A DNA stretch of 46,609 bases from an uncultured Lachnospiraceae bacterium. GTDB taxonomy: Bacteria > Bacillota > Clostridia > Lachnospirales > Lachnospiraceae. The stretch lies in NCBI GenBank assembly GCA_934418125.1, contig CAKRWT010000020.1:1-46609 (forward strand). The letters are read 5' to 3'. A program made the translations under genes and the position numbers. Below, piece after piece: positions 33,455-36,154 of this stretch (within the stretch, counting starts at the first letter, position 1; each line of letters opens with the position of its first letter). The notes beneath the pieces are model-generated. The model was given only the letters and a program-made list of their open reading frames with translations. It searched no databases and was not told the DNA's origin.

Positions 33455-33946
33455 CTACTGGGCGGAGTCTGTGGTTTCATCGCCCACGTTTTCCAGTGCC
33501 TTTTCCAAGGAGTTGGTAATCGCATCTAACAGAATCATGGAAGTATATTTGCTGTCATCGGGATATGTAATGCCCTCAAGGCTCTGGTTCTTGATAATCT
33601 GATTGGAAAGTTCCTCAAAAGATGGCTGAATCAGAGGATACATGGTGGTCACAGCCTCATCAAGATTCACCAGACGGATGGAATTGATATTGTGTTCGTC
33701 CACAGTGACTTCGATTTCCACAACGTTGTCATTGAGAATCAAAGAGGTTGTGTATACACCGGGCACATAAGAGTTGGAGGTCGTCTGTGTCAGGGTGGCA
33801 GCACTTGTTTCTGTTGCCTTTTCCTTGTCCTTGGGCAGGAACATGATAATCAACAGGATGATAAAGAGGATGCCAAGTGCGGCAAAGATACCGGTATATA
33901 TCAATTCTTTTACATGAAGCACGACAATTTTGGTTTTGGAACTCAT
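33455..33946 (-). CDS. Single-span extracytoplasmic protein, FMN_bind-like domain
   Basis: The 163-residue protein has an N-terminal cytoplasmic tail, one membrane helix (about 16-37) and a Thr/Ser-rich linker. A small domain (about 60-150) begins SYVPGVYTTSLILNDNVVEIEVTVDEHNINSIRLVN. That pattern resembles the FMN-binding (RnfG/NqrC-type) fold, which starts 'G.Y...... G..I.V.V.V....I..I', but no flavin-linking Thr motif is evident. GGGGAT precedes the ATG. It is divergent from glnA, separated by 235 bases. The domain assignment is tentative. Confidence 0.6.
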   Translation of the reverse strand: MSSKTKIVVLHVKELIYTGIFAALGILFIILLIIMFLPKDKEKATETSAATLTQTTSNSYVPGVYTTSLILNDNVVEIEVTVDEHNINSIRLVNLDEAVTTMYPLIQPSFEELSNQIIKNQSLEGITYPDDSKYTSMILLDAITNSLEKALENVGDETTDSAQ

Positions 33947-34031: not shown

Positions 34032-34061
34032 TTGACAAACGCACAAAATAGCTGTTATTAT
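34032..34061 (+). promoter_or_regulatory. SigA promoter of glnA
   Basis: TTGACA (34032-34037, consensus) and TATTAT (34056-34061) are separated by 18 bases. Transcription would start near 34067, exactly at the first leader hairpin, giving a ~115-nt leader. Confidence 0.7.
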
Positions 34062-34066
34062 GGTAC

Positions 34067-34122
34067 AGAACGAGGACGTTCTTATTGCGAAAGTGCAAAT
34101 AAGGATGTCCTTTTGCGCGTTT
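34067..34122 (+). promoter_or_regulatory. Structured glnA leader, candidate ANTAR-controlled attenuator
   Basis: Two exclusive folds are visible. Fold A is one long hairpin, 34074-34088 with 34095-34110 (about 15 pairs, two G-U wobbles, one bulged A, loop GAAAGT), followed by TTTTGCGCGTTT; this resembles a weak intrinsic terminator. Fold B has two small hairpins. P1 is AGAAC (34067-34071)/GTTCT (34078-34082) around GAGGAC. P2 is 34095-34104/34109-34116, with AAGG/CCTT closing ATGT. Both loops fit G-A-N-G-N-C if the closing G-C is counted as loop. Tandem six-base-loop hairpins competing with a terminator are the known target type of ANTAR proteins, and one is encoded after glnA. The first loop base is G where the published consensus has A. 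Confidence 0.55.
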
Positions 34123-34181
34123 ATGGGATAAAAACGATAGTTACGATAAAATAGCATGGATAAACAGAAAGGAAAGAGGCT

Positions 34182-35516
34182 ATGAGAAAGAATTATACGA
34201 AACAGGACATCATACAGTTAGTTGAGGATGAAGACGTAGAATTTATCCGCCTGCAGTTTACAGATATTTTCGGTAATCTGAAAAATGTGGCGATTACAGC
34301 AAGTCAGTTAGAGAAAGCACTGGATAACGAGTGTATGTTTGATGGCTCTTCCATTGAAGGATTTGCAAGAATCGAAGAGTCGGATATGTATCTGTATCCG
34401 GATTTCAGCACTTTGGAGATTTTCCCCTGGAGACCCCAGCAGGGAAAGGTAGCCCGCCTTATCTGTGACGTGTATCGTCCGAATGGGCAGCCCTTTGAAG
34501 GAGATCCACGCTATATTCTGAAACGGGCGATTGCCGAAGCAAAGGAAATGGGTTACACCTTTGAGGTAGGACCGGAATGCGAATTTTTCCTGTTTAATAC
34601 GGATGAAAATGCCATGCCTACCACCATTACCCATGAGAAGGCAGGATACTTCGATTTAGGACCGATGGACTTTGGGGAGAATGCCAGAAGAGATATGGTA
34701 CTTACCCTGGAGGAAATGGGATTTGTCATCGAAGCTTCCCACCATGAGGTAGCACCGGCGCAGCATGAGATAGATTTCCGTTATGACGAAGCCCTGGCAA
34801 CTGCCGACAACATTATGACCTTCAAGCTGGCAGTTAAGACCATTGCCCGCAGACACGGACTGCATGCAACCTTTATGCCGAAGCCGAAGTATGGCGTGAA
34901 TGGCTCCGGTATGCACATCAATATGTCCCTTTCGAAGGACGGAAAAAATATTTTTGCCAAAGAAGGGGATAAACTAGGTCTGAGCGAGGAAGCCTATTAT
35001 TTCATTGGTGGTATTATGAAACACATGAAAGGCATGACTGCCATTACCAATCCACTGGTAAACTCCTATAAAAGACTGGTGCCGGGTTACGAAGCACCTG
35101 TCTACATTGCATGGAGTGCAACCAACAGAAGCCCGCTGATTCGGATTCCGGCTTCCCATGGGGAAGGCACCAGAATCGAACTGCGCTGCCCTGACCCGTC
35201 AGCGAACCCTTATCTGGCACTGGCAGTATGCCTGCGGGCAGGCTTAGACGGCATTAAGAACCGAATCACACCTCCGGACAGTGTAGACTGCAATATTTTC
35301 CAGATGAGCGAGGCAGAGAAACAGGAGCGCGGCATCGAAGAGATTCCGGGCACTCTGATTGAAGCGCTTTATGATATGGAAGCAGACCCGTTTATCCAGG
35401 ACGTATTGGGCGATCATGCTTACGAAAAATATATTTCTGCGAAAAAGGATGAATGGTATCGCTACCGCTGTCAGGTAACGGACTGGGAAGTAAACGAGTA
35501 CCTGAATGTATTTTAA
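34182..35516 (+). CDS. glnA: Glutamine synthetase, type I (GSI-alpha)
   Basis: The 444-residue enzyme forms glutamine from glutamate, ammonia and ATP as a dodecamer. The N-terminal [16 protein letters not shown] and the latch DGSSIEGF (about 51-58) are present. The catalytic core shows [50 protein letters not shown] and [12 protein letters not shown]. The length of ~444 and the lack of the ~25-residue insertion and adenylylation Tyr segment place it in the feedback-regulated GSI-alpha group of Firmicutes. AAAGG/AGAGG precede the ATG. A promoter and structured leader lie upstream and an ANTAR regulator gene 89 bases downstream, pointing to nitrogen control by antitermination. Confidence 0.96.
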
Positions 35517-35605
35517 AGGATACAGGAGCCGGAAAACGTATCAGGCGTTTTCCGGGGAAGGAAACGACAGCGTAAGGGAAGAAAAGCAGCAAAGGAGGTG
35601 AGCGT

Positions 35606-36154
35606 GTGATTAATATCATAGTGGTATTGCCAAAGCTAGAAGATGCCAAGGGAATCCGTGGTGTACTGGTAAGAAGCGGATTCCAGGTAACGGCAGTCTG
35701 TACCACCGGTGCCCAGGCACTCAGCCAGTTGGACGATTTAAACGATGGTATTATTATCTGTGGCTATAAGCTGACGGATATGATATACAGTGAATTACAC
35801 GCCTGCCTGCCCCAGGGATTCGATATGCTCCTGATGGCATCCCAGAATCTGCTCAATGACTGCCTGGGTAATGATATCATGTGTCTTGCCATGCCCTTGA
35901 AAGTGCATGATTTGATTAACACCATAGATATGATGAGCCAGACCATCCTGCGCCGCCGTAAGAGGGCGAAACTGAAACCCAAGGAACGCAATCCGGAAGA
36001 AGTGGCGTTAATCAGAGAAGCCAAGGAACTTCTTATGAACCGTAACAACATGACAGAAGAAGAGGCACATCGTTATATCCAGAAGTGCAGCATGGACAGC
36101 AGTACCAATATGGTGGAAACGGCCCAGATGGTTCTGACCATGATGTGTGGATAG
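35606..36154 (+). CDS. ANTAR-domain RNA-binding antiterminator with pseudo-receiver (GlnR-type)
   Basis: The 182-residue protein has a receiver-like domain (1-115) and a C-terminal ANTAR domain (about 128-182: EEVALIREAKELLMNRNNM, EEEAHRYIQKCSMD, MVETAQMVL), which binds RNA hairpins and prevents termination. The receiver lacks its chemistry. The position of the phosphoacceptor Asp reads IIICGYKLTD, the acidic pair after strand 1 is absent (IIVVLPKLED), and the Lys-Pro near the end is MPLK. It therefore probably responds to a protein or ligand, not phosphate. The start is GTG at 35606 with a strong AGGAGGTG upstream. It lies 89 bases after glnA, as reported for a clostridial glnA-glnR pair, so the glnA leader is its likely target. 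Confidence 0.88.
   Translation: MINIIVVLPKLEDAKGIRGVLVRSGFQVTAVCTTGAQALSQLDDLNDGIIICGYKLTDMIYSELHACLPQGFDMLLMASQNLLNDCLGNDIMCLAMPLKVHDLINTIDMMSQTILRRRKRAKLKPKERNPEEVALIREAKELLMNRNNMTEEEAHRYIQKCSMDSSTNMVETAQMVLTMMCG

Follow-up and report, generated by a model that had tools for sequence, protein, structure and literature searches.

Comparison of leader sequences gives good support for an ANTAR-linked nitrogen attenuator before glnA in the window, as we call the whole stretch of 46,609 nucleotides from an uncultured Lachnospiraceae bacterium analyzed here, but not for the two-hairpin form in which it was originally predicted. The leader is probably a one-hairpin transcription attenuator controlled by an ANTAR protein, in which the recognition hairpin, P1, would itself supply the 5′ arm of the terminator. 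As read from the aligned leaders, this one-hairpin layout differs from that of published two-hairpin ANTAR leaders and is found before many nitrogen genes of relatives. The evidence in hand consists of the sequences, their conservation, the covariation of terminator and P1, the co-occurrence of the element with ANTAR genes, and the gene contexts; from these we infer binding, antitermination, the order of strand displacement, the transcription start, and the signal. Papers are cited by accession.

Two mutually exclusive folds in the glnA leader

The type I glutamine synthetase gene glnA (34182–35516, + strand; Pfam PF00120, 2.8e-139; PF03951, 8.4e-34) is followed by the gene for a NitR-like ANTAR protein of 182 aa (35606–36154, + strand; PF03861, 2.1e-15) and then, according to Pfam, by genes for a diaminopimelate epimerase and an aminotransferase. 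The promoter expected before glnA was found as a promoter-like site, TTGACA-N18-TATTAT (34032–34061, + strand), with TTGACA beginning at 34032, TATTAT ending at 34061, a TG before the −10, and 11/12 matches. Adjoining it is a divergent gene for a 163-aa protein (33455–33946, − strand) that gave no Pfam match at 1e-3 and no NCBIfam match at 1e-5. Between glnA and the ANTAR gene lies an 11-bp hairpin (35529–35555) with no T run after it. The intergenic MFE is −19.2 kcal/mol, and strong folds of different sequence were also seen in this intergenic region in some of 30 relatives. The ratio of GlnA to ANTAR protein may be set by this hairpin.

Folding of the leader recovered the long hairpin of the original prediction: the MFE structure pairs 34072–34088 with 34095–34112 in 17 pairs with one bulge. 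This terminator hairpin (34072–34112, + strand), to which covariation and a covariance model match also point, carries at its stem end a short U-rich tail, UUUUGCGCGUUU (34111–34122, + strand), read from the sequence. The U-tract is weak (of the 8 nt that follow loop 2, 4 are T) and places the window among the 12 of 203 collected sites (see below) that have 4 or fewer. None of 200 shuffled sequences folded as well as the leader (z −3.71 for 34067–34181 and −4.00 for 34067–34122).

Of the two small hairpins proposed as the competing fold, the first, P1 (AGAAC-GAGGAC-GTTCT, 34067–34082, + strand; loop GAGGAC at 34072–34077), occurs at the predicted 5′ end of the mRNA and cannot coexist with the long hairpin, so the two folds are mutually exclusive as claimed. 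The second, P2 (AAG-GATGTC-CTT, 34101–34112, + strand; first drawn over 34095–34116), is drawable, and the loop motif G-A-N-G-N-C does occur in both GAGGAC and GATGTC, but P2 could not be confirmed as more than chance and is unsupported as a conserved hairpin. The 5′ arm of the terminator takes in the loop and 3′ strand of P1 and continues into the bases that directly follow, and the 3′ arm contains the proposed P2; because P1 contributes its loop and 3′ strand in this way, keeping it closed would directly block termination. By itself, P1 of the window has an energy of −3.3 kcal/mol and the long hairpin one of −21.1 kcal/mol. The 3-bp P2 (34101–34112) is unfavorable alone (+1.4 kcal/mol) and together with P1 gives −2.4 kcal/mol, which is worse than P1 alone; its extended form (34095–34116) with P1 reaches −6.5 kcal/mol versus −21.1 for the long hairpin.

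Collection of related leaders

Relatives of the leader were gathered from a protein scan for glnA relatives, of which the best 80 loci of a larger set were used. The element from 41 of these loci plus the window, cut by coordinates, made up the 42 leaders of alignment A3. The seed scan admitted only leaders with G at position 4 (G4) of each loop, a P1 of at least 3 pairs, and a paired terminator, so the conservation of these features among the seeds is partly built in. A covariance model, R1, was made with the terminator pairs only, the P1 region entering as sequence without P1 pairs; its training set was mainly Lachnospiraceae and comprised 42 seeds, among them the window, which scored 38.9 bits (E 1.8e-7) against it. 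Within the window, the R1 scan detected no second copy of the element (next best E 1.1). Outside it, R1 matched 32/32 genomes behind the chosen loci at E 0.1 (mostly seeds), 159/397 genomes of one relative's family at 1e-3, 30/291 genomes of that relative's class at 5e-4, 3/3 genomes of the genus of the L064 genome at 0.02, and 26/194 genomes of the Clostridiaceae, the family of that same genome, at 0.005. The Clostridiaceae matches are few, and several precede genes without a nitrogen tie and are perhaps due to chance. By eye, elements in L299, L303, L306, L308, and L319 of this family stand before apparent ammonium transporter, asparagine synthase, and adenylosuccinate synthase genes.

Stricter filters were applied in the family scan. 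From among the matches listed (about 150 places), 141 loci were taken, which over-represents strong matches. Sites were admitted at E up to 0.01, 0.05, and 0.1, and a few weak ones (such as L027 and L048) may be chance matches. Removal of 19 rows overlapping a better opposite-strand match from 231 aligned rows left 212 sites, including 47 glnA sites from the window itself and from loci selected as relatives of glnA, and removal of 9 identical ones left 203. The register-energy test covers 176 of the 203 sites and the GlnA tree 103 of 104 glnA sites; the other site statistics ignore the tree. Many glnA leaders share TTGACA..TATNNT, then GAAC-AARGGC-GTTC, which is P1, and further downstream a reverse complement with T's at its end.

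At glnA, the position of the element relative to the promoter is regular. A promoter-like site with at least 9/12 matches precedes 103 of the 109 glnA sites that have 60 nt upstream (window included), and its −10 ends 4–12 nt before the element in 97 of these 103, both counts being without a shuffle control. P1 would therefore lie at or near the mRNA start, as judged from the promoter. At GSIII sites a promoter of 9/12 was found in only 15/43, 7–29 nt before the element, so this arrangement does not extend to the whole regulon.

Covariation of the terminator and P1

Covariation among homologous glnA leaders, which the original prediction implied for all of the proposed stems, was observed for the terminator and P1 but did not exceed that of shuffles for the P2 pairs. 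On A3, the terminator has 94.2% of cells paired and a covariation of 0.387 versus 0.275 in shuffled alignments (0/500 as high), and on the larger site set 95.5% and 0.381 versus 0.214. For one terminator pair, the GlnA tree has 17 branches with changes on both sides, 13 of them A-U/G-C exchanges, and 35 with a change on one side. The 4-bp stem of P1 is paired in 41/41 distinct A3 rows, with a G-C to A-U exchange, and in 188/203 sites, with at least 3 bp in 203/203 (at least 3 pairs being required in the seed scan). On the larger site set, P1 has 96.9% of cells paired and a covariation of 0.232 versus 0.187 shuffled. Its outer pair goes from GC to AU. On the GlnA tree this pair changed on both sides on 3 branches and on one side on 5; the number of P1 pairs with a two-sided change, which is 2, lies within that of shuffles (82/500). 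Both terminator and P1 exceed their shuffled and slid versions in paired cells as well as in covariation, and the terminator pairs just 3′ of P1 (columns 20–22 with 73–75) are 96.8% paired and covary.

Forced into a hairpin with a six-base loop, the P1 register was favorable in 174/176 sites, with a median of −3.7 kcal/mol, and eight registers neighboring it (shifts of 1–4 bases) were favorable in 0 to 7%. The P1 loop has G4 in 203/203 sites (G4 being required in the seed scan) and A at position 1 (A1) in 178/203, and its closing C-G pair is present in 203/203. Most relatives thus have a P1 that fits the published ANTAR rule of a C:G closing pair, A1, and G4. Twelve Clostridiaceae glnA leaders, several of them from close relatives, have P1 with 4 pairs and A1/G4 in 12/12.

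In the glnA leaders, positions 2/3 of the loop in the P2 region, tabulated against the P1 strand, gave AT 21 and GC 52 versus AC 23 and GT 4 (Fisher 4e-6, ignoring the tree). Exactly one G-U wobble is favored, as if terminator strength were tuned; this preference is absent from GSIII sites (p 0.53).

The proposed second hairpin

A published-type dual-hairpin antiterminator, in which P1 and P2 both fold, are both recognized by the ANTAR protein, and together exclude the terminator, is an unlikely description of these leaders, even though it is the best of the alternatives to the one-hairpin attenuator. In its favor, the window allows a P2 to be drawn whose loop matches that of P1, the published definition, with stems of 3 bp or more and loops with A1 and G4 in both hairpins, holds for 64/203 sites, and the P2 loop has G4 in 199/203. 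The covariation of P2 (0.330) is also above that of slid versions (0.04–0.23), the closing G on its 5′ side is retained against U in 25/38 sites, which is above neighboring stem positions, and both hairpins matter for eutP of E. faecalis (PMC3369931). In shuffles, however, pairing and covariation are no lower: P2 pairs 86.7% of cells versus 87.0% shuffled (86.2% on A3), its covariation is 0.330 versus 0.336, and P2 slid 1–3 columns 3′-ward still has 85–87% of cells paired. Nor is its stability special. A P2 of at least 3 bp is drawable in 106/203 sites, in which the 3-bp form never falls below 0 kcal/mol, and with extensions of 10 nt allowed on either side the P2 register is favorable in 37/176 sites (21%; median +1.8), while for eight neighboring registers the share is 0.6 to 24%, and one exceeds P2. 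On the GlnA tree, the first P2 pair changed on both sides on 0 branches and on one side on 33, and the second changed jointly on 1 branch without the pair being restored. Among the Clostridiaceae glnA leaders, P2 has at most 1 pair in 11/12, is drawable with at least 3 bp in 1/12, and has A1 in 2/12. That a P2 stem can be drawn at all probably reflects the makeup of the terminator 3′ arm, the reverse complement of a segment in which pyrimidines follow a purine-rich loop.

At one stage, A1 of P2 appeared to be conserved beyond the needs of terminator pairing, with an A:G ratio of 79:5 at position 1 versus 44:53 at position 2 in glnA leaders. This was dropped because A is in similar excess elsewhere in the stem where the partner is U (137:14, 82:16), position 2 being the odd one; A at position 1 of P2 is no more favored than at those positions. 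Since P2 does not go beyond shuffles, has no special stability, and is nearly absent in the 12 Clostridiaceae leaders, the paired-hairpin ANTAR site first envisaged was not borne out, and one conserved recognition hairpin rather than two is favored on balance.

Variation at loop position 1

The window has G at position 1 in both loops and keeps G4, while most relatives have A at position 1, and a differing recognition rule had been suggested on this basis. Across the 203 sites, position 1 is A in 178 and G in 25 for loop 1, and A in 153, G in 27, and T in 23 for loop 2, with G in both loops in 7. On the GlnA tree there are 10 changes at this position in loop 1 and 14 in loop 2; they coincide on 1 branch and occur in a single loop on 9 and 13, respectively. 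A coupled change of rule is thus not supported, and G1 in P1 is, from its distribution over the leaders, a scattered minority variant. A concerted switch from A1 to G1 with a matching protein change had been hinted at by 4 G/G leaders among 42 (Fisher p 0.003 for glnA counts; p 0.053 for all 203 sites). It was discarded on three counts: G/G occurs in 0/42 GSIII sites, genome G001 carries A1 and G1 elements (L001, L113), and the tree has the 1 joint change. Replacement by His of the residue corresponding to Tyr164 of EutV was likewise rejected as the cause of G1, because His is present in 52/63 proteins, most of which have A1 leaders.

Pairing of G1 with C6 would be possible in the window; it would shrink the loop to four bases with a gain of ~1.8 kcal/mol and may weaken ANTAR binding there. 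Tolerance of change at position 1 is consistent with the EutV-RNA structure, in which A1 makes no specific contact (PMC8934654). On the other hand, mutation of A1 reduced eutP induction (PMC3369931), which speaks against such tolerance.

The ANTAR protein

The protein encoded downstream of glnA consists of a receiver-like domain without the phosphoryl-accepting Asp, a helix, and an ANTAR domain that passes the family cut-off (PF03861, 56.7 bits versus 27.3). Its AlphaFold model has a mean pLDDT of 89.6 and a pTM of 0.64. In a fold search with this model, EutV was the best match (E 3.7e-10, query TM 0.49; 0.61 for the RNA-bound form), followed by Rv1626, with AmiR (1qo0) at rank 7 (E 6.3e-6). 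The EutV-type phosphorylation site (D54) is missing, the aligned stretch reading IIICGYKL; among 63 aligned proteins, Asp at position 53 occurs in 2, and a conserved C-G-Y (residues 52–54) replaces the site. Given a receiver-like domain without Asp, a partner protein or ligand, as in AmiR-AmiC, is more likely than a kinase. Tyr164 of EutV, which stacks on G4 of the RNA loop, aligns with His155 (His in 52, Phe in 8, and Tyr in 3 of the 63), and Met172 of EutV aligns with Met163, which is invariant (63/63). ANTAR proteins with Phe at 155 follow a glnA without an R1 element in L032, L034, L039, L059, and L065; L062 and L064 have Phe at this position, yet the element is present.

Co-occurrence with ANTAR genes and the candidate regulon

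Co-occurrence and regulon were examined in relatives, with counts that ignore kinship and with family and class samples that overlap. Among the 397 family genomes, an ANTAR protein (E 1e-10) is found in 145/159 genomes with the element versus 136/238 without it at an element threshold of 1e-3, in 114/119 versus 167/278 at 1e-4, in 86/87 versus 195/310 at 1e-5, and in 63/63 versus 218/334 at 1e-6. At class level, PF03861 is present in 28/30 genomes with and 115/261 without the element (Fisher 9e-8), and it was found in 0/14 control genomes. The converse case, an element without an ANTAR gene, occurs in 5/119 family genomes at 1e-4, in 14/159 at 1e-3, and in 2/30 genomes at class level. The element tracks the ANTAR gene, and the prediction that the leader is a target of a NitR-like ANTAR protein is well supported by comparison.

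Adjacency is part of this linkage. An ANTAR gene lies within 2.6 kb downstream at 85/85 glnA sites that have at least 2.3 kb downstream, and an ANTAR-like frame was found on the glnA strand at 69/80 loci (the best 80 of the larger set, some of which end too early). NitR of Clostridium saccharobutylicum is also said to be linked to glnA. The autogenous layout originally proposed agrees with the 85 sites, but ANTAR genes also follow glnA genes without the element. The linkage is not only one of adjacency, since 54/58 genomes whose sites, among the matches listed, all precede non-glnA genes carry an ANTAR gene. The corresponding count for GSIII sites with an ANTAR gene downstream is 0/43, so control there would be in trans.

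The nitrogen theme of the original prediction recurs in the gene contexts: 102 of 143 family-scan sites, among the matches listed, precede glutamine synthetase genes (type I in 63, type III in 37, and further glutamine synthetases in 2). The rest of these 143 precede ammonium transporter/PII (5), glutamate synthase (5), circularly permuted ATP-grasp (5), ABC ATPase (4), tRNA-synthetase-like (3), diaminopimelate epimerase (2), and binding-protein-like (2) genes, or other genes or none (15). Pfam agrees for ten representatives, some of them from outside these 143, namely DAP epimerase, class II tRNA synthetase, Peptidase_C26, GATase_2 with Glu_syn_central, CP_ATPgrasp, GSIII, Ammonium_transp with P-II, P-II alone, ABC_tran, and CTP synthase; gene classes beyond these ten were assigned by clustering with them or by reading residues. 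In L243 (G286), tandem copies of the element (89–132 and 201–246) stand before an apparent solute-binding protein gene. A circularly permuted ATP-grasp gene follows the element at 10/212 sites (for example L111 2918–2958; PF14403/PF04174), which suggests a nitrogen-linked role for this enzyme.

These data also bear on the idea that the attenuator is run by some other factor, such as an RNA-binding protein, polymerase speed, or a small RNA, with the ANTAR gene a mere neighbor. Some genomes do carry the element or the ANTAR gene alone, and ANTAR binding here is a prediction, but an ANTAR gene is present in the 54/58 genomes with only non-glnA sites among the matches listed versus 167/278 without the element, the P1 loop obeys the published ANTAR rule, and no Rfam 15 family reaches its gathering score anywhere in the window; we regard this idea as quite improbable. 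Least credible is an unregulated 5′ hairpin that stabilizes the mRNA or limits expression without any switch, which would suit P1 at the predicted 5′ end and the weak U-tract of the window but not two mutually exclusive folds that each show compensatory changes, an element that recurs before related genes, or T-rich tails with at least 5 T in 8 at 191/203 sites.

A model for attenuation by a single hairpin

In the one-hairpin attenuator that we favor, the glnA mRNA would start with P1, whose six-base loop is closed by C-G and carries G4. The terminator would form by strand displacement: RNA made later would pair first with toehold bases just 3′ of P1, then take the P1 3′ strand and finally the loop, so that P1 opens. 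When active, the NitR-like ANTAR protein would keep P1 closed and let polymerase enter glnA and the ANTAR gene, which would create a positive loop. A glutamine/nitrogen regulon would be under the same element and presumably the same ANTAR protein.

Such a site may be weak unless this ANTAR protein differs from those described, since loss of either hairpin lowered in vivo induction by EutV (PMC3369931) and NasR bound a single hairpin at about 12 µM and the pair at about 1 µM (PMC7496416). The chances are roughly even that the model holds in its broadest form, in which Clostridia have a large glutamine/nitrogen regulon on single-hexaloop ANTAR attenuators, with one hairpin, which at glnA would be the first part of the mRNA, serving as ANTAR site and terminator 5′ arm, toehold displacement bringing about termination, and the dimer needing only that loop. 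The leader family suggests what controls glutamine synthetases, and nitrogen genes connected with them, across many Lachnospiraceae and in some Clostridiaceae.

Comparison with known ANTAR systems

Among the papers listed in a literature search, which did not extend to the first study of C. saccharobutylicum or to the supplementary tables of Ramesh 2012 (PMC3369931), no title or abstract describes this leader form. Some of the sites may be in those tables, because the text of that paper names synthase enzymes for glutamine among the predicted ANTAR targets. NitR of C. saccharobutylicum is an ANTAR regulator reported to antiterminate and induce genes of the GS/GOGAT cycle on nitrogen limitation (PMC6316151), and no description of its RNA site was found in the searchable literature. 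The present system resembles it in having an ANTAR gene downstream of glnA. The element also stands before glutamate synthase genes at 5/143 family-scan sites among the matches listed. The 12 Clostridiaceae glnA leaders collected here have mostly the P1-only form.

For the nasF leader of Klebsiella oxytoca, the SELEX rule obtained with NasR (C:G closing pair, A1, and G4; PMC7496416) fits P1 of most relatives, but NasR is a NIT-domain protein and its full affinity needs both hairpins (PMC7496416). In AmiR-AmiC, the receiver-like domain of AmiR also lacks the phosphorylation residues (PMC8934654). The EutV/eut leaders of E. faecalis and the general ANTAR motif (Ramesh 2012, PMC3369931; Walshe 2022, PMC8934654) are alike in the combination of receiver-like and ANTAR domains, in a loop of six bases that has G4 and, in most relatives, A1, in a hairpin that is exclusive with an intrinsic terminator, and in the nitrogen genes that follow. 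In EutV/eut and published ANTAR leaders, as far as the available texts go, P2 overlaps the 5′ side of the terminator (PMC3369936, PMC3369931) and P1 lies outside it (PMC8934654), whereas here the 5′ arm is made up of the loop and 3′ strand of P1, and the P2 region, unsupported as conserved, falls in the 3′ arm. Set against the dual-hairpin definition, the window has a six-base-loop P1 of at least 3 bp with G4, but not A1 in both loops, a conserved P2, or a P2 placed over the 5′ arm.

In the EutV-RNA structure, the dimer contacts one loop at a time and cannot hold both, and its authors ask how widely single-hexaloop sites are used (PMC8934654). If the reading proposed here is true, single-hexaloop attenuators would be a natural answer to that question, and this leader family a natural, testable case. 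It would also widen searches for ANTAR targets that demand two hairpins, which 64 of the 203 sites collected here would pass.
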